Below are positions 1,475 to 11,473 of a stretch of DNA of 64,000 bases, one piece after another. A model generated the notes under the pieces. The model searched no databases, was not told where the DNA came from, and was given only the letters and a program-made list of their open reading frames with translations. Numbering within the stretch: position 1 is the first letter of the stretch; each line of letters opens with the position of its first letter. Source of the stretch: Subtercola vilae. GTDB lineage: Bacteria; Actinomycetota; Actinomycetes; Actinomycetales; Microbacteriaceae. Position numbers and translations under genes: made by a program. Location of the stretch: assembly GCF_004923255.1 (NCBI RefSeq), contig NZ_QYRT01000001.1, forward strand, positions 124,001 to 188,000, written 5' to 3'.

Positions 1475-3001
1475 CTACTCGGGCGCGTCGTTGAGGTGCC
1501 CCGACAGTTGCTCGCGCAGGGCCCCGCTGCGGGCATCCAGCCCCCGCACTTCGACAGACGTACCGATGGCGTGGTACTTGGCCTCGATGGCGTCGAGCAC
1601 CGCGACGGTCGAGGCGTCCCAGATGTGTGAATCGCTGAGGTCGATGACCACCAGCGCGGGGTCGGCGGCGTACGAGAAGTGCTCGGGCAGATCGTTGCTC
1701 GACGCGAAGAACAGTGAGCCGCCCACGCGATAATGCGCCTTCGAGCCGTCGGCCGACAGTTCGCGCGTCACCGAGCGGTGCCCGGCGACCCGCCGCAGCA
1801 ACAGGATGCTCGCCAGCAGCACCCCGACTCCCACCCCGATGGCCAGATTGCCCGTGGCCACCACCACGACCACCGTCACCACCATCACCGCCGTCTCAGG
1901 CACCGGCATTCGGCGGATCACGCGCGGGCGCACGCTGCCCCAGTTCACCGTGCGCACGGCCACGATCATCATGACCGCGGCGAGGGCGACCATCGGAATG
2001 CGCGCCATGGCTCCCGACAGCACGGCGACGAGCAGAAGGAGAAAGAGCCCCGCCGCGATGGTCGACAGCCGCGTGCGGGCGCGGCCGATCTTCACGTTCA
2101 CCACGGTCTGCCCGATCATGGCGCAGCCCGCCACGCCGCCCCAGAAGCCGGCCATCACATTGGCCACGCCGAGAGCCCACGACTCGCGCGTCTTCGACGA
2201 CGGGCTGTCGGTGAGGTCGTCGACCAGCTTGGCGGTCAGCAGCGTTTCGATGAGCCCCACGAAGGCGACGGCGATGGCGGTGGGCGCGATGATGCCCAGC
2301 GTCGCGAGGTCGAACGGCACCCCGAACGGCGTGAACCCGGGCAGGCCCCCCGAGATGGCGCCCTCGTCTCCGACCGTGGGCACCGCGATGCCGAACGCCA
2401 CAGTGAGGGCGGTCACCGCAACGATCGCGACGAGCGGAGCCGGCACCACCTTCGTGATCTTCGGGAACAGCCAGATGATGGCGAATGTCAGCGCGAACAG
2501 CGGGTACACCGGCCACGGCACGTTCAGAAGGTGCGGTACCTGGGCGGCGAAGATGAGAATGCCGAGGGCATTCACGAAGCCCAGCATCACCGATCGCGGA
2601 ATGTAACGCATGAGCTTCGACAGCCCGGTCGCTCCGAAGGCGATCTGGATGACCCCCGCAACGATCACCGTCGGCAACAGGTATTCCACCCCGTTCGACT
2701 TCACCATCGGCGCCACCACCAGCGCCACCGACCCGGCCGCAGCGGTCACCATAGCCGAACGCCCGCCGAGCACCGACATGCTCAGCGCCAGCACCACCGA
2801 GGCCACCAGGCTGTTGATCGGGTCGACCCCGGCGATGATCGAGAACGAGATGACCTCGGGGATGAGCGCGAGGGTCGTCACCAGCCCGGCCAGCGCCTCG
2901 GTGCCGAGCAGCGCCGGGTTTCGGAGCTGCACCGCAAGCGGCAGGCGCCCCCGCGCGTTGAGCGCGCGCGTCGACAGGGGTTCTCTGCGGGTGGTGGGCA
3001 T
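1475..3001 (-). CDS. SulP-family anion transporter with C-terminal STAS domain
   Basis: This 508-residue membrane protein has the SulP (SLC26) layout: a short cytoplasmic N-terminus, about ten to twelve hydrophobic segments (residues 30-390), and a soluble STAS domain in the last 100 residues. Members move sulfate, bicarbonate or other anions, and the sequence does not settle which. The early motif EALAGLVTTLALIPEVISF fits the conserved first transmembrane helix of the family. The start is the ATG at 3001. The gene is divergent from the MMPL transporter with only about 50 bp between them. No carbonic anhydrase or sulfate-assimilation gene is adjacent. Confidence 0.93.
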   Translation of the reverse strand: MPTTRREPLSTRALNARGRLPLAVQLRNPALLGTEALAGLVTTLALIPEVISFSIIAGVDPINSLVASVVLALSMSVLGGRSAMVTAAAGSVALVVAPMVKSNGVEYLLPTVIVAGVIQIAFGATGLSKLMRYIPRSVMLGFVNALGILIFAAQVPHLLNVPWPVYPLFALTFAIIWLFPKITKVVPAPLVAIVAVTALTVAFGIAVPTVGDEGAISGGLPGFTPFGVPFDLATLGIIAPTAIAVAFVGLIETLLTAKLVDDLTDSPSSKTRESWALGVANVMAGFWGGVAGCAMIGQTVVNVKIGRARTRLSTIAAGLFLLLLVAVLSGAMARIPMVALAAVMMIVAVRTVNWGSVRPRVIRRMPVPETAVMVVTVVVVVATGNLAIGVGVGVLLASILLLRRVAGHRSVTRELSADGSKAHYRVGGSLFFASSNDLPEHFSYAADPALVVIDLSDSHIWDASTVAVLDAIEAKYHAIGTSVEVRGLDARSGALREQLSGHLNDAPE

Positions 3002-3051
3002 CTGTCAAGGCTATCGGCCCCCTGTCTACGGGCTGGCCGGGGCCCCCGCGG

Positions 3052-5280
3052 GTGGGTATGGTGATGCCCGTGAAACGCACACTTCCGCCGCGCTGGCTGC
3101 GCATCGTTCTTCCGCTGGTACTCGTAGGCCTCTGGGTCTTCGTGTCGTCGCAGGGCGGGCCCACTTTCGGCACGATCGGCGAGGTGACGAACAACAACCA
3201 GAGCTCGTACCTGCCGGCCAGCGCCGAGTCGACCAAGGTGCAGGCGCTTCAGACGCAGTTCTTCGGCTCTGACACGATTCCGGCCATTGTGCTCTACACG
3301 CGGGATGCGGGTATCACCCCCGCAGACCAGGCTGCGGTGGCCACGCAGATAACAGCGTTCCAGGCGGTGTCCGGAGTGAAGAGCGCGTCGCCCGGGGTGC
3401 CCTCGAGCGACGGCAAGGCGCTCGAGGTGTTCGTCTCGGTCGACCAGGCGGCCGACGGCAGCACGGTGATCGCAGCGTTGCGAAGCGTGTTGACCGCGCA
3501 TCCGGAGCCCGGGCTGACCGGCTACGTGACCGGGCCGTCGGCGCTCGGCGCAGACTTCGGCGCCGGGTTCGCAGGCATCGACGGCATTCTGCTGCTCGTC
3601 GCGCTCGCGGCCGTGTTCTTCATTCTGCTGCTCGTGTACCGCTCGCTGCTGTTGCCGGTACTGGTGCTGCTGACGTCGGCGTTCGCGCTCACGGGCAGCA
3701 TTCTGCTCGTCTACTTCGTGGCCAAAGCCGGGTGGGTGACGGTGACGGGCCAGAGCCGGGGCATCCTGGCGATTCTGGCGATCGGCGCCGCCACCGACTA
3801 CTCGCTGCTACTGGTTTCGCGCTACAGGGAGGCCCTGTTCACCGAGCAGACGGCGTGGGAGGCCATGCGCGTAGCGCTTCGCCGAGCGGTCGAGCCCATT
3901 GCCGCGTCGGCGGCCACCGTTATTCTGGCGGTGCTCTGCCTGCTCTTCTCCGACCTCAACTCGAACAAGGGGTTGGGGCCGGTGGCGGCGATCGCCATTC
4001 TCTTCTCCCTGCTGTCGGCGCTCACCGCGCTGCCGGCGCTGCTGGTGCTCACGGGGCGGGCTGCGTTCTGGCCGTTCCGCCCGAAGTATGTGGGTGCGGC
4101 TCAGTATGACGGTGCGGCTCCGGATGACGGTGCGGCTCCGGATGCCCGGGCGGCCGCCGATGTCGTCACGATCGGACGGGTGTGGGCCGCCCTGGGCCGC
4201 CTGATCGCCCGCCGCCCGCGGGTCACCTGGGTGGCCACGGCGCTGCTTCTCGGAGTGTTCAGCCTGGGGCTGCTGCAGCTGAGTGCGAGCGGGGTGCCGC
4301 AGACCGACTTGCTGCTCTCGGCGTCGCAGTCGGTCGACGGCCAGAAAGCCCTCGCCCAGCACTTCGACGCCGGCAGTGGCAGCCCGGTGATCGTCGTGAC
4401 GAGCCAGACGCAGGCGGCTGCGGCGCTCGCCGCGACAGCGGCCACGCCCGGCCTGACCGGCGCGTACGTCTACTCGGGAACGCAGGGCGGCAGCGCCGCG
4501 AAGGGCAGCGCGGCCACGCCGACAGCCACGCCGACAGCCACGCCGACAGCCACGCCGACAGCCACGCCCACACCTGCCCCCGTCGTCGTCGGCGACCAGG
4601 TGCTCATCGAGGCCACGCTCACGGCGCAACCCGACTCCGACGAGGCGGCCGGTGTGGTGAGCGACCTGCGCGCCCGCCTCGGCACCGCGGCCCCCGGCTC
4701 ACTCGTGGGCGGTACGACCGCGCTGAGCCTCGACACGAACACCACTGCCCAGCGCGACCTGGTCACGATCATCCCGATCGTGCTGCTCGTCATTCTGGTG
4801 GTGCTGTTTCTGCTGCTGCGTTCGATTGTGGCGCCGCTGCTGCTCGTGGGCACGGTGGTGCTGTCGTACGCGGCCACGCTCGGCATCTCGGCGTTCGTCT
4901 TCAACCACCTGTTCAACTTCGCGGGCGCCGACCCGTCGGTGCCGCTGTTCGGGTTCGTGTTTCTGGTGGCCCTCGGGGTCGACTACAACATCTTTCTCAT
5001 GACGAGGGTGCGAGAGGAGTCGCTGGTGAGGGGTACGAGGCCCGGCATTCTGCGCGGGCTCGGGGCGACCGGCGGCGTGATCACATCGGCCGGGATCGTG
5101 CTGGCGGCCACTTTCGCGGCCCTCGGCGTGGTGCCGATTCTGTTCCTGGTGCAGATCGCGTTCATCGTGGCGTTCGGTGTGCTGCTCGACACGTTCCTCG
5201 TGCGCTCGCTGCTCGTGCCGGCACTGTCGTACGACGTGGGCCGCGCCATCTGGTGGCCCTCGAAACTGTCGAAGGGGTAG
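3052..5280 (+). CDS. MMPL/RND-family membrane transporter
   Basis: The 742-residue protein has the duplicated RND layout: transmembrane helix 1 near residues 15-35, a periplasm-facing domain to about 170, a helix cluster at 175-330, a second single helix near 390, a second outer domain, and a final helix cluster at 560-720. Such proteins export lipids, siderophores or drugs in actinobacteria; the cargo here is unknown. Residues 488-507 are five ATPT units encoded by a 12-bp tandem repeat in the second outer loop. The start is ambiguous: GTG at 3052 and ATGs at 3058 and 3064 are in frame and none has a clear ribosome binding site. Confidence 0.92.
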   Translation: MGMVMPVKRTLPPRWLRIVLPLVLVGLWVFVSSQGGPTFGTIGEVTNNNQSSYLPASAESTKVQALQTQFFGSDTIPAIVLYTRDAGITPADQAAVATQITAFQAVSGVKSASPGVPSSDGKALEVFVSVDQAADGSTVIAALRSVLTAHPEPGLTGYVTGPSALGADFGAGFAGIDGILLLVALAAVFFILLLVYRSLLLPVLVLLTSAFALTGSILLVYFVAKAGWVTVTGQSRGILAILAIGAATDYSLLLVSRYREALFTEQTAWEAMRVALRRAVEPIAASAATVILAVLCLLFSDLNSNKGLGPVAAIAILFSLLSALTALPALLVLTGRAAFWPFRPKYVGAAQYDGAAPDDGAAPDARAAADVVTIGRVWAALGRLIARRPRVTWVATALLLGVFSLGLLQLSASGVPQTDLLLSASQSVDGQKALAQHFDAGSGSPVIVVTSQTQAAAALAATAATPGLTGAYVYSGTQGGSAAKGSAATPTATPTATPTATPTATPTPAPVVVGDQVLIEATLTAQPDSDEAAGVVSDLRARLGTAAPGSLVGGTTALSLDTNTTAQRDLVTIIPIVLLVILVVLFLLLRSIVAPLLLVGTVVLSYAATLGISAFVFNHLFNFAGADPSVPLFGFVFLVALGVDYNIFLMTRVREESLVRGTRPGILRGLGATGGVITSAGIVLAATFAALGVVPILFLVQIAFIVAFGVLLDTFLVRSLLVPALSYDVGRAIWWPSKLSKG
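4513..4572 (+). repeat. 12-bp coding tandem repeat in the MMPL gene
   Basis: Four exact copies of GCCACGCCGACA are followed by one variant copy. The array is in frame and adds ATPT units to the second extracytoplasmic loop. Gain or loss of units would keep the reading frame, so the array could vary in length between strains. Confidence 0.9.
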
Positions 5281-5305
5281 ATTGCGAGAGACGAAAGGGT
5301 CTCTC

Positions 5306-6115
5306 GTGAGCATTCCGGCAACCTCCTCCTCTCTCGATGTGCGCGGCGCGCGGCTCGGTTTCACCGACTTCGGCGCTGAGAATCTGCCGCTGGCGATCAG
5401 CGCGCATGGGCTGACGTCGAGCCGAGCATCGACGCTGCGCTCCGGGGTGGGCGACTACACCGCCGTGGGTCAAGGCGGGCATCGGCGGCTCGTCTCATAC
5501 GATGCCCGCGGGCACGGCGAATCGAGCGGCGGCAGGTCGGCCGAGGAGTACCACTGGTCGAAGCTGGCGCTCGACCTTCTCGCGGTGGCAGACCACTTCT
5601 CACCCGAGGCGCCCGTGGCCGGTATCGGCCTGTCGATGGGAACCGGCACCCTGCTGCACGCCGTCACGCATCTGCCCGGCCGGTTCGACCGGCTCGTCTT
5701 GAGCGCTCCGCCGACCGCATGGCAGACGCGCGCCGGCCAAGCCGGCATGTACAACCAGATGGCCGATGTCATCGAGAAGGGCACACCCGACGAACTCGTC
5801 GAGCTGTTCGCTTCGGTGCCGCTGCCGGAGATCTTCGCTGATCTGCCCGAGTTCGGTGCCGTTCCCGACATTGACATCTCGCTGCTGCCCACGGTGTTCA
5901 GGGGGGCCGGTCAGTCTGATCTTCCTCCGTTCGAGGCGTTGAGCGGCATCACGCAGCCCACACTGATTCTGGCGTGGGCCGGCGACCCCGGGCATCCGGT
6001 GTCAACGGCTGAGAAGTTGGCCGAACTGATACCGAACTCTGAGCTGGTTGTGTCGACGACGAGTTCGGATGTTCAGACCTGGGGTGCCCGAGCCGCAGCC
6101 TTTCTCGCGTCGTAG
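5306..6115 (+). CDS. Alpha/beta hydrolase
   Basis: This 269-residue alpha/beta hydrolase has a nucleophile elbow GLSMG near residue 108 and ends with a region matching the catalytic Asp/His part (AWAGDPGHPVS). The frame is open further upstream into the MMPL gene, but the GTG at 5306 follows an AAAGGG motif by 8 bases and begins where family similarity begins, so it was chosen. It lies 25 bp after the MMPL stop and may be co-transcribed with it. The substrate cannot be read from sequence; small esters, lactones or haloperoxidase-type chemistry are all possible for this family. Confidence 0.87.
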   Translation: MSIPATSSSLDVRGARLGFTDFGAENLPLAISAHGLTSSRASTLRSGVGDYTAVGQGGHRRLVSYDARGHGESSGGRSAEEYHWSKLALDLLAVADHFSPEAPVAGIGLSMGTGTLLHAVTHLPGRFDRLVLSAPPTAWQTRAGQAGMYNQMADVIEKGTPDELVELFASVPLPEIFADLPEFGAVPDIDISLLPTVFRGAGQSDLPPFEALSGITQPTLILAWAGDPGHPVSTAEKLAELIPNSELVVSTTSSDVQTWGARAAAFLAS

Positions 6116-8491: not shown

Positions 8492-9349
8492 CTAGCTGAG
8501 CACGGTGCGCAGGGTGTCGGCGACGGGGGTGGTGGGGTGGCCGATGAGCGTTGACAGGTCATCCGTGATCTTGTCGAGCTCGCCGGCGGCGATGTTGGCG
8601 TCGAGCGCGGTGATGAAGCCGATGGTGCCCTCGTCGAGGCCTGCCGAGCGCAGAACCTCGGTGTGGGCCTCGCTCGAAACCGACTCGAAGACGACGTCGC
8701 GGTTCAGCACATCGCTGAGGGTGGCGGCGAAGTCGTCGCCGTTCCACGCTACGTCGCCCGAGAGCTCGTACGTCGCGTTCGTGTGCCCCGGGGTGCTGAG
8801 CACCACAGCCGCAGCCTCGGCGTAGTCGGAACGGCTGGCACTGGCGACGCGGCCCGTGCCGGTGCTGGCGAGGTAGACGCCGGTCTGCTGAACCTGCCCG
8901 AGGGTCTGGGTGTAATTCTCGTTGTACCAGTTGTTGCGCACGATGGTGAAGTCGACTCCGGATGCCCGCAGGTACTCTTCGGTCGCCGTGTGTTCTGGGG
9001 CCAGCACGAGCGTCGTGTTGTCGGCCTTCGGAGCGCTCGTATAGACGATCTGTGTCACGCCGGCCGCTTTGGCTGCGTCGATGGCATTGATGTGCTGTTG
9101 TACGCGGCTGCCCACTTCGCTTCCTGAAACGAGGAGAACACCCTCGGCGCCCTCGAAGGCGGCGGCGAGGGTGGCCGGGTCGGTGAAGTCGATGACGGCG
9201 GTGCGAACGCCGAGGCTCTTCAGGGCATCCAGTCGACCGGCATCGCGACCAGCCGCGACGATGTCGGCGGGCGGGGTGCCGCGGGCGATGAGGTGATCGA
9301 TGGCGAGGCGGCCGAGGTGGCCGGTGGCACCGGTGACGACGAGTGACAT
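8492..9349 (-). CDS. NmrA-like NAD(P)H:quinone oxidoreductase (QorB/Qor2 type)
   Basis: The 285-residue protein begins with the dinucleotide-binding motif MSLVVTGATGHLGRLA and continues like the QorB (YtfG) branch of atypical short-chain dehydrogenases, which reduce quinones with NAD(P)H. Open frame continues upstream, but the ATG at 9349 is preceded by AAAGGA and begins the Rossmann fold, so it was chosen. It is divergent from a HxlR-type gene with 103 bp between them. The same qor/qorR arrangement is known in E. coli and Corynebacterium and supports a role in quinone or electrophile stress. Confidence 0.88.
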   Translation of the reverse strand: MSLVVTGATGHLGRLAIDHLIARGTPPADIVAAGRDAGRLDALKSLGVRTAVIDFTDPATLAAAFEGAEGVLLVSGSEVGSRVQQHINAIDAAKAAGVTQIVYTSAPKADNTTLVLAPEHTATEEYLRASGVDFTIVRNNWYNENYTQTLGQVQQTGVYLASTGTGRVASASRSDYAEAAAVVLSTPGHTNATYELSGDVAWNGDDFAATLSDVLNRDVVFESVSSEAHTEVLRSAGLDEGTIGFITALDANIAAGELDKITDDLSTLIGHPTTPVADTLRTVLS

Positions 9350-9436: not shown

Positions 9437-9453
9437 TGGTAAGCTACTAACCA
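9437..9453. promoter_or_regulatory. Candidate QorR/HxlR operator
   Basis: TGGTAAGCTACTAACCA is an interrupted palindrome (TGGTnAG / CTnACCA) that ends on the start codon of the HxlR-type gene, in the divergent intergenic region. HxlR/DUF24 repressors bind short palindromes in exactly this position; the assignment is inference from symmetry and context. Confidence 0.5.
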
Positions 9454-9836
9454 TGAGTGAAGCCGTGTCATTGCAAACCGTCGTTGGCGTGAACGTCTTC
9501 GCGGCGAACTGCCCCAGCCGCAGCGTGCTCGACCATGTCACAAGCAAGTGGGGCGTACTGGTGATCGTGGCGCTCTCGGGCGACACTCTGCGGTGGGGCG
9601 AGCTGCGGCGCAGCATCGGGGGCATCAGCGAGAAGATGCTGGCGCAGACCCTCCGTGTGCTCGAGGCCGACGGTATGGTGCTGCGCACGGTGCAGGCCAC
9701 CATTCCGCCCCGCGTCGACTACCAGCTCACCGATCGCGGGCGCTCGCTCGCCGACCGACTCATCCCCCTGGTGGAGTGGGTCGGCGACAATGCGGTTGAG
9801 ATCGTGGCTGGCCGGCCGGAGGCTGGCGCCAGCTGA
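9453..9836 (+). CDS. qorR: HxlR-family redox-sensing regulator (QorR-like)
   Basis: The 127-residue protein is a HxlR/DUF24 winged helix: VLDHVTSKWGVLVIVAL, RWGELRRSIGGISEKMLAQTL and a wing ending in YQLTDRG. It has a single cysteine, Cys20, in an ANCPSR context near the N-terminus. That is the arrangement of QorR, where one N-terminal cysteine is oxidised by diamide or quinones to release DNA. The frame is open upstream, but the ATG at 9453 begins the family similarity. It probably represses itself and the divergent quinone oxidoreductase. Confidence 0.88.
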   Translation: MSEAVSLQTVVGVNVFAANCPSRSVLDHVTSKWGVLVIVALSGDTLRWGELRRSIGGISEKMLAQTLRVLEADGMVLRTVQATIPPRVDYQLTDRGRSLADRLIPLVEWVGDNAVEIVAGRPEAGAS

Positions 9837-9893: not shown

Positions 9894-10445
9894 TCAAGCA
9901 ACATTTGCCAGTCCGGCGATGAGCAGTTCTACCGCGGCGCGTGACTCGGACGCCCAGTCGGGCCGGTCAGTCGCCGAACCGATGCCGTGCAGAACGACCA
10001 TCACCGCCCCTGCGGCGACATCGTGGCGGATGGCGCCGTCGGCGACAGCCCGGGTCATCAGCGTGGCGACGGTGTCTTCGAGTTGGCTCCCGCCGTCGGA
10101 TTGAACGGCGGGAGCGACGACGGCTGCCAGCGTGCGCGCAAGGCCGGCATGCTCCACCACGTAGTCCACGAAGCCGCGCAGAAACAGGTTGAGGTTCTCG
10201 CCAGGCGACTGTAGAGAGTCGCGGGCCCGATCGCAGAGCGCAGTCACCTCGCCTTGGTACACCGCCGCGGCCAACGCCTCCCGGGTGGGGAAATGCCGGT
10301 AGAGCGTGCCCACGCCCACGCCGGCGCGCGCCGCGAAATCATCGAAGCGAAACTGCTCATCGTCATCGAATGCCGCTCGCGCAGCCGCTACGATCGCATC
10401 CCGGTTACGCCGGGCATCGGCGCGCAATGATCGTGGCTCCGTCAT
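9894..10445 (-). CDS. TetR-family transcriptional repressor
   Basis: This 183-residue TetR protein has its helix-turn-helix at residues 25-50 (FDDFAARAGVGVGTLYRHF), followed by a helical ligand domain with the tail common to actinobacterial TetR repressors. The frame is open for a further 90 codons upstream, but the ATG at 10445 with GGAGG seven bases before it is the clear start. It is divergent from a ketopantoate-reductase-like gene. Two nearly identical palindromes occupy the promoter between them, so this protein most likely represses both directions. Confidence 0.92.
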   Translation of the reverse strand: MTEPRSLRADARRNRDAIVAAARAAFDDDEQFRFDDFAARAGVGVGTLYRHFPTREALAAAVYQGEVTALCDRARDSLQSPGENLNLFLRGFVDYVVEHAGLARTLAAVVAPAVQSDGGSQLEDTVATLMTRAVADGAIRHDVAAGAVMVVLHGIGSATDRPDWASESRAAVELLIAGLANVA

Positions 10446-10455
10446 GAGTCCTCCG

Positions 10456-10484
10456 TTGACAATTGGAGACGATCTCCATATTCT
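10456..10484 (+). promoter_or_regulatory. Sigma70-type promoter of the reductase-like gene
   Basis: A consensus TTGACA (10456-10461) is followed after exactly 17 bp by TATTCT (10479-10484). Transcription would begin near 10491, giving a leader of about 35 bases before the chosen ATG at 10526. Confidence 0.75.
10464..10478. promoter_or_regulatory. TetR operator 1, between -35 and -10
   Basis: TGGAGACGATCTCCA is a perfect 6-bp-arm palindrome with a 3-bp centre filling the promoter spacer. A second copy lies 27 bp further on (centre to centre). Binding here would block RNA polymerase directly. Confidence 0.7.
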
Positions 10485-10487
10485 CGT

Positions 10488-10508
10488 ACATGGAGACAAT
10501 CTCCATGT
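10488..10508. promoter_or_regulatory. TetR operator 2, over the transcription start
   Basis: This 21-bp palindrome has perfect 9-bp arms (ACATGGAGA / TCTCCATGT) around a CAA centre. It covers the predicted transcription start and shares the TGGAGA/TCTCCA core with operator 1, showing that one dimeric repressor probably binds both. Confidence 0.72.
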
Positions 10509-10525
10509 TATCCGAAGGGTGCGGC

Positions 10526-11473
10526 ATGAGAATTCTGATGTTCGGTCGCGGAGTGATTGCAACGATCTACGGAAGCCTGCTTCAGGAAGCCGGGCACCAC
10601 GTCGAGTTCTATGTCCGTCCGGGGCGCGCAGCGGAGTACGGCGATGACGTGCGGATAGACCTGATCGACGCGCGTCGCTGGCCGCTCGGCAGGCGGAACC
10701 GCGAGTCGTTCGCAATTCGGTTGCGTGAATCCGTAGCCGCGGAAGACGGATTCGATCTCATCGTGCTCAGCGTCGCGCACCACCGTCTTTCAGAGGCGGC
10801 GGCATTTTTGGCTCCCCGGCTCGGCGAGGCATCGGTGTTCGTCTTCGGCAACGTGTGGGAGGAGCCTCTCGACGCGATCGCACCGCTTCCCGTCGATCGC
10901 GTCGTGTTTGGGTTTCCACAGGCAGGCGGCGGCTTCGGGGACGATGGTGTGTTGCACGGCGGTTTGCTCCGATCCGTCATTGTCGGCACGGCCGGTGCTT
11001 CGCCGACGCGTCGGGAACGCGATGTGCAGACAGCTTTTCGTCAGGCCGGTCTCACCATTCGCGAAGAGCGGGACATGCGAGGGTGGCTGTGGTTGCACTT
11101 CATCTCTGATGCAGGCATGTTCGCTCAGGGGCTTCGGAGCGGGTCGCTGGCGAACATGATCGGCGACCGTCGAGCACTCCGAGACGCGTTCCTGACGGCT
11201 CGTGAGCTTCTGCCCGTTCTCAAGGCTCGGGGGGTCGACTTCCGTCGACACCACGCCGCCATGCTGCCGTATCGGCTGCCCGGCCTGGTCGGCGCGATGA
11301 TGGCAGGGGTGACCGTGGTACTGCCTCTCGCCAAGCCCAGCCTCGCTGCCCACACAGACCCCCACGCGCCCGAACCCCTGGCCGTACTCGCAGACACGCG
11401 TCGCGAAGCCCGCCGGCTCAACATCCCCACCCCGCGCCTTGACGAGTCGGCGGGTATTGCGTCGCCAGCCTGA
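10526..11473 (+). CDS. Ketopantoate reductase-like NAD(P)-binding protein
   Basis: This 315-residue protein resembles the ApbA/PanE family: N-terminal MRILMFGRGVIATIYGS Rossmann motif, helical C-terminal half. The family's catalytic Lys is not seen: the aligned segment reads GWLWLHFISDAG, with His191 in its place, and the following Asn is Asp. It is therefore unlikely to be the pantothenate enzyme and is better called a PanE-like oxidoreductase. In-frame ATGs at 10463, 10490 and 10505 lie within or next to the promoter and operators; the ATG at 10526 has GAAGGG upstream and begins the fold. It is controlled by the divergent TetR. Confidence 0.82.
   Translation: MRILMFGRGVIATIYGSLLQEAGHHVEFYVRPGRAAEYGDDVRIDLIDARRWPLGRRNRESFAIRLRESVAAEDGFDLIVLSVAHHRLSEAAAFLAPRLGEASVFVFGNVWEEPLDAIAPLPVDRVVFGFPQAGGGFGDDGVLHGGLLRSVIVGTAGASPTRRERDVQTAFRQAGLTIREERDMRGWLWLHFISDAGMFAQGLRSGSLANMIGDRRALRDAFLTARELLPVLKARGVDFRRHHAAMLPYRLPGLVGAMMAGVTVVLPLAKPSLAAHTDPHAPEPLAVLADTRREARRLNIPTPRLDESAGIASPA

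Follow-up and report, generated by a model that had tools for sequence, protein, structure and literature searches.

The window, that is, the whole 64-kb stretch of DNA analysed here from a 4.04-Mb draft genome, contains a pair of divergent genes separated by a gap of 80 bp. The first gene (9894..10445, minus strand) encodes a TetR-family repressor of 183 amino acids, characterized by an N-terminal TetR helix-turn-helix domain (PF00440, 33.6 bits against a Pfam cut-off of 24) and by a C-terminal SbtR-like domain (PF21597, TetR_C_43, 54.1 bits against a cut-off of 27). The solved sequence nearest to this repressor is 2q24 (E 1.6e-30 over residues 4-180), which we take to be SCO0520 of Streptomyces coelicolor. 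The second gene (10526..11473, plus strand) encodes an enzyme of 315 amino acids related to ketopantoate reductase, in which an invariant histidine, His191, is found at the position of the catalytic lysine. As the genes flanking the pair are both oriented towards it, each gene of the pair is transcribed alone. A second regulator-oxidoreductase pair adjoins this one, with divergent genes at 8492-9349 (minus strand) and 9453-9836 (plus strand), whose products are presumably, judging from their sequences, an NmrA/quinone-oxidoreductase-like protein and an HxlR-like regulator, respectively. A role of the TetR-enzyme pair in defence was rejected, as neither protein matched a PADLOC defence profile at E values up to 0.01. 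In addition, no close relative was found on the plasmids of the collection searched, one record of which contains a relative with 26% identity.

The gap between the two genes accommodates, on the plus strand, a promoter for the enzyme gene and two palindromes. Specifically, the -35 hexamer TTGACA (10456..10461) and the -10 hexamer TATTCT (10479..10484) are separated by a spacer of 17 bp, 15 bases of which are taken up by the palindrome TGGAGACGATCTCCA (10464..10478), the putative operator 1. The second palindrome, the putative operator 2, has its core, TGGAGACAATCTCCA, at 10491-10505 and becomes a 17-bp palindrome (10490..10506) once the flanking A/T is counted. It lies at the predicted transcription start, which falls about 7 nt past the -10 hexamer, near 10491, where this second site begins. 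Both palindromes have the form TGGAGA-N3-TCTCCA, with a start-to-start distance of 27 bp, and the start codon of the TetR gene is 18 bases from operator 1. The sequence itself thus bears out what the sequence-only reading had described, namely two tandem palindromes, one filling the spacer and the second 27 bp further on over the start point. That reading had also spoken of a near-perfect promoter, a wording that is justified for the perfect TTGACA but slightly strong for TATTCT, which matches the consensus at four of six positions (10 of 12 overall). A promoter scan of the region returned one such promoter against 0.3 expected from shuffled sequences, so that the promoter match alone proves little; on the minus strand, the scan found no promoter for the TetR gene.

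A genome-wide search for the exact palindrome returned two occurrences, both of them in this gap. When one mismatch is allowed, 11 places are found, against five for a reversed control. As far as a wider regulon is concerned, no exact site is present elsewhere in the 4.04 Mb, and nine places with one mismatch are.

The strongest test of the palindromes being more than a chance occurrence is the conservation of the pair. Relatives of the locus were gathered by scanning a genome collection with an alignment and two peptide patterns; 288 were confirmed and the best 80 were kept, which together with the window give 81 loci, a sample biased to close relatives. A site pair was scored when the two sites, each with up to three mismatches, were 18-36 bp apart. 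Such a pair is present in 73 of these 81 loci, always at 24-30 bp and in 60 cases at 27 bp (42 loci) or 26 bp (18 loci); of 3825 control windows taken from these loci, 5 contain a pair. Among the 73 loci with the pair, the -35 hexamer TTGACA is exact in 68 and the 17-bp spacer is found in 69.

Close relatives of the enzyme (E below 1e-60) are encoded by nine of the 149 genomes searched, the window's own included. Among the eight other carriers, five loci (L007-L011) share the same two-site promoter, one (L012) differs in both palindrome and regulator, and two (L013, L014) belong to a third type. Across 119 related genomes, strict sites lying within 30 bp of each other were found only in G000, G053 and G060, all of which carry close relatives of the enzyme, while in the carriers G009 and G011 one site is strict and the other contains mismatches. 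Some strict match exists in 29 of the 119 genomes; in 23 of these, which are without a close enzyme relative (E below 1e-60), the sites are unpaired and are taken, as a matter of judgement, as background.

Which protein these sites belong to can be addressed through co-occurrence. Taking a score over 140 bits with the subgroup profile as the definition of a subgroup TetR, this regulator is found in 73 of the 80 loci (best 80 of 288), the TetR of L058 being cut by a contig end. The site pair accompanies it in 72 of these 73 loci and is found in none of the seven others. The sole exception among the TetR-carrying loci is L079, which lacks an intergenic region and whose TetR is missing the N-terminal part. 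In this locus of Microbispora rosea, where TetR is at 2484-3038 (minus strand) and the enzyme at 2995-3960 (plus strand), the TetR codons run straight into the enzyme start, and the promoter and both operators are missing, through either a natural deletion or an assembly fault. In another locus, L073 of Pseudonocardia sp. ICBG1293, the TetR gene lies within 4928-5893 (plus strand), downstream of the enzyme gene and of a cytochrome P450 gene and about 2 kb downstream of the enzyme start. There, no site accompanies the TetR gene, and the two sites that the locus has are both at the enzyme promoter. Moreover, none of the 80 loci contains a strict site outside the 150 bases before the enzyme. Considering the co-occurrence, the layout of L073 and the lack of strict sites elsewhere in the loci, the palindromes very probably belong to the subgroup TetR and serve the enzyme promoter. 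The proposal that they are operators of the divergent TetR gains support in this way from the contrast of 72/73 with 0/7, as well as from the lack of further exact copies in the window's genome. The switch is not strictly required, since L078, L105 and L113 contain the enzyme with neither the subgroup TetR nor the site pair, a situation to which the arrangement of L079 can be added.

Two other uses of the palindromes have to be weighed. It is improbable that TetR uses only operator 1 and that operator 2 acts as RNA, forming a 5′-terminal hairpin that stabilises the mRNA or sets its translation. The leader does form a stem of 6 bp closed by a loop of 3 nt and, according to the Jungle Express report (PMC6127294), induced expression also rose when a second operator was placed at the start, possibly via such a stem. 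Nevertheless, site 1, which lies upstream of the start point, shares with site 2 both the core and a frequent change, T to C at position 9, seen in 30 of the 73 loci at each of the two sites; the same core and the same change at both sites point to one DNA-binding protein. In addition, this change breaks the innermost pair of the RNA stem, and the leader folds no better than its shuffles (z -0.90). Somewhat less credible still is the view that the palindromes mainly serve autoregulation of the TetR gene, with the control of the enzyme being incidental. In its favour are the location of the sites in the shared gap and the behaviour of two TetR regulators with gaps above 200 bp that, according to PMC3511530, bound their DNA and did not regulate the neighbouring gene. 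This view is opposed by the constant placement of operator 1 between the -35 and the -10 of the enzyme promoter and by L073, in which both sites are at the enzyme promoter and none at TetR, even with the TetR gene downstream. The same paper reports that in Streptomyces all five TetR regulators tested whose divergent gap was below 200 bp repressed their neighbour, and the 80-bp gap of the window fits this '200 bp rule' for TetR repressors.

Turning to the predicted target of the TetR, the enzyme can be compared with E. coli PanE, whose general acid is Lys176, together with Asn98 and Glu256, as stated in PMC3478992 and PMC10127515. Sequence alignment places His191 (codon CAC, 11096..11098, plus strand) on the catalytic lysine. 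This column holds His in 80 of 80 alignable members of the clade, one truncated row being without the position, and Lys in five of the five Lys-type paralogues encoded by the window's genome. The remaining triad residues are retained, the asparagine (Asn109, corresponding to PanE Asn98) in 80 of 81 and the glutamate (Glu283, corresponding to PanE Glu256) in 80 of 80 alignable members, together with the GxG motif. Further conserved residues of the clade are His276 and His242, each in 79 of 80 alignable members, and Trp111, in 81 of 81. The earlier claim of a ketopantoate reductase look-alike without the catalytic lysine is therefore not only supported but sharpened, the lysine being replaced by an invariant histidine with Asn and Glu kept.

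Domain searches separate this clade from its Lys-type relatives. The N-terminal ApbA domain (PF02558) is recognized in the window enzyme with 27.6 bits against a cut-off of 22.2, and it matches, at E values up to 0.01, all 32 clade members scanned with Pfam (the window, 28 of the 80 loci and three from the genome search). None of these 32 members matches the C-terminal domain PF08546 (ApbA_C) at E values up to 0.01, whereas the five Lys-type paralogues all match both domains. Likewise, the window enzyme reaches 34.2 bits with TIGR00745, below the cut-off of 141.35, whereas the five paralogues, used as a control, pass it with 151-205 bits. Altogether, the window's genome gives ten ApbA matches, which comprise the window enzyme, the five Lys-type paralogues and four proteins (L119, L121, L122 and L123) that do not contain a W-x-K motif and were left out of the paralogue control; we assume the latter to be a glycerol-3-phosphate dehydrogenase, two hydroxyacid-dehydrogenase-like proteins and one pyrroline-carboxylate-reductase-like protein. 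Three of the Lys-type ketopantoate-reductase-like paralogues (L115, L117 and L118) are located within about 8 kb of one contig (G000:C82:23113-30715).

The predicted structure of the enzyme (pLDDT 89.8) displays the ketopantoate reductase fold, with a Rossmann domain followed by a helical C-terminal domain. Ketopantoate reductases are the closest matches in structure searches with the model, with an E value of 3.9e-14 for 3hn2 and a Z score of 24.1 for 8ix9 (rmsd 3.4, 289 aligned residues). The D-mandelate dehydrogenase 5x20 scores nearly as high (Z 23.3), and glycerol-3-phosphate and opine dehydrogenases reach Z scores of about 18-20; with other dehydrogenases scoring so close, the reaction cannot be read from the fold alone. 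Opine dehydrogenases employ a catalytic His-Asp pair. One of them, 1bg6, aligns with the model over 281 residues (Z 19.6, rmsd 4.2) in a comparison at the level of whole folds.

The invariant replacement and the conservation of the rest of the triad argue for an active site that is changed rather than dead. Loss of the catalytic lysine might be taken to mean that the protein has abandoned catalysis and acts in ligand binding or scavenging, but we regard this as unlikely: the replacement is always one and the same residue and Asn, Glu and GxG are kept, while drift would be expected of a dead enzyme. That the enzyme is the cell's own ketopantoate reductase (PanE), its active site having drifted, is very unlikely, since the ketopantoate reductase fold and the retained Asn and Glu are outweighed by the invariant His where Lys is expected, by a TIGR00745 score and a lack of ApbA_C matches that set it apart from the five paralogues, which pass both, and, in our judgement, by a TetR control that would be odd for a step of a vitamin pathway. 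In summary, the clade shares with the PanE/ApbA family (TIGR00745, PF02558/PF08546) the fold, the N-terminal domain and two residues of the triad, and differs from it in the Lys-to-His change, in the lack of an ApbA_C match, in scores far below the family cut-off and in the adjoining TetR gene. It combines a known fold with an uncharacterised variant of the active site, and no assigned reaction for a Lys-to-His variant with Asn and Glu kept was found in the literature searched. Most likely, the clade consists of NADP(H) oxidoreductases induced by their own substrate or a relative of it, NADP(H) use being suggested by the GxG motif and by the arginines that follow strand 2.

Some indication of the substrate comes from the neighbourhood of the pair in relatives. 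A full-length P450 gene (PF00067) lies 3′ of the enzyme gene on the same strand in nine of the 81 loci (L065, L068, L073, L074, L075, L090, L093, L103 and L104), and a small ferredoxin gene is present in six of these nine. The P450 proteins are 75-94% identical to that of L104, encoded at 4090-5292 (plus strand), and among solved structures a compactin hydroxylase (2z36) and P450-SU1 (2zby) come nearest to them, followed lower down by enzymes named CYP105. Five more loci (L058, L066, L089, L092 and L096) contain only pieces of a P450, which look as if the P450 had decayed while the pair was kept. In a direct search, no P450 was found in the window or in 67 of the 81 loci, its presence being only partly judged in L081 and L095, which hold less than 2.5 kb downstream. 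The pair had been described as a stand-alone one, which is true of the window and usual among relatives but not of the loci with a full-length P450 or its pieces. When P450 and ferredoxin are set aside, no cluster of neighbouring frames extends over more than five of the 81 loci, where its positions are scattered, in a count in which 224 frames straddle the ends of the pair in 74 loci.

In P450-SU1 type systems, an inducible P450 and a small ferredoxin are placed under a repressor. The nine loci resemble these systems in having a P450 for which P450-SU1 is one of the nearest solved relatives and, in six cases, a ferredoxin; in contrast, the pair of the window is without a P450, and it is the ketopantoate-reductase-like enzyme that stays constant. 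The CYP105-like neighbours are a hint at xenobiotic or natural-product metabolism, albeit an indirect one as regards the substrate, given that the window and most of the loci are without the P450. As a P450 and a ferredoxin follow the enzyme in some relatives, a foreign compound or a natural product would be the likeliest class of substrate.

The regulator beside the enzyme can differ. In L059, L067, L071 and L097, the enzyme stands beside a different TetR-type gene, so judged by sequence rather than by a family search, and a single palindrome, GTACGATACCGTTTCGTAC (differing by one letter in L067), is found just before the enzyme start; L012 comes from the same genome as L097. These four loci form one group in the enzyme tree (97/93). 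Two loci of the third type, L013 and L014, whose enzymes are 40-41% identical, show another TetR-type gene and a palindrome-like GTGGAAACCAYCTTCCAC in the gap before the enzyme start. Furthermore, the enzyme tree, whose bootstrap had not converged, mixes Pseudonocardiaceae and Streptosporangiaceae within the starred forks, and this mixing suggests horizontal transfer. A broader reading, to which we give about even credence, is that the exchange of Lys for His gave the clade a novel reaction, with a natural product or a foreign compound as substrate, and that TetR and enzyme form the core of a small inducible cassette moving between actinobacteria, in which a CYP105-like P450 and ferredoxin may be gained or lost and the TetR may be exchanged.

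For the pair itself, we consider it probable that it represents a substrate-induced TetR switch for a single NADP(H) oxidoreductase, in which His191 serves as acid/base on a substrate other than ketopantoate. In this model, without ligand, TetR dimers bound to operator 1, inside the -35/-10 spacer, would block the binding of RNA polymerase, and dimers bound to operator 2, at the start point, would block initiation or escape. With both operators occupied, the strong enzyme promoter would be silent. The same sites would probably also damp transcription of the TetR gene, a possibility raised by the start codon of this gene lying so near operator 1; the argument for this autoregulation is a geometrical one, as the scan found no minus-strand promoter and the TetR gene of L073 has no site. 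A small molecule, most likely the substrate of the enzyme or a close chemical relative, would then release TetR and allow the enzyme to be made. Once synthesized, the enzyme would act on a carbonyl or an alcohol other than ketopantoate, His191 taking over the general acid/base role of the usual lysine. The very tight repression that had been predicted for the enzyme promoter is plausible, in analogy with the engineered Jungle Express promoter (PMC6127294), which has this arrangement.

A close parallel is offered by EilR/eilA of E. lignolyticus and by the engineered Jungle Express promoters, as described in PMC6127294. In Jungle Express, repression was enhanced when the operator in the 17-bp spacer was supplemented with another at the start point, and the natural eil region likewise has two operators. 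EilR/eilA resembles the pair of the window in its divergent TetR gene and in a pair of palindromic operators, of which one is embedded in the promoter region and the other lies closer to the start codon, and Jungle Express in having an operator, truncated in that case, in a 17-bp spacer and another at the start point. Conversely, the EilR/eilA operator is 24 bp long and of another sequence, against 15-17 bp here, its natural sites are about 36 bp apart, against 27 bp here, and its target is an efflux pump instead of an oxidoreductase. A second comparison is with SbtR of Thermus thermophilus, which belongs to the same C-terminal family as the window TetR (PF21597). According to PMC4948773, the SbtR consensus is TGACTGGCCAGTCA, of the TGAC-N6-GTCA type, with no core shared with TGGAGA-N3-TCTCCA, and SbtR has several candidate sites in its genome, unlike the single promoter with exact sites found here. 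The different sites led us to reject the idea that the window TetR is SbtR itself.

The regulatory arrangement is a new example of a known, textbook kind. In the open-licence literature, nothing was recognised on the operator sequences or on the TetR-enzyme pair, which is not proof of their absence from print. Thanks to the conservation, operator and target can be predicted without experiment for many species, and the promoter could provide a natural, compact and probably tight option for actinobacteria. In addition, two handles on the substrate are available, namely the ligand of the repressor and the likely chemistry of the P450 in some relatives. Strict helical phasing of the two TetR dimers is probably not needed, as the spacing of the sites varies between 24 and 30 bp. 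In L070 of Kribbella antibiotica, an extra palindrome, GCGGAGATCATCTCCGG, lies further upstream than the usual pair, some 105 to 89 bases ahead of the enzyme start, and represents a possible third operator.
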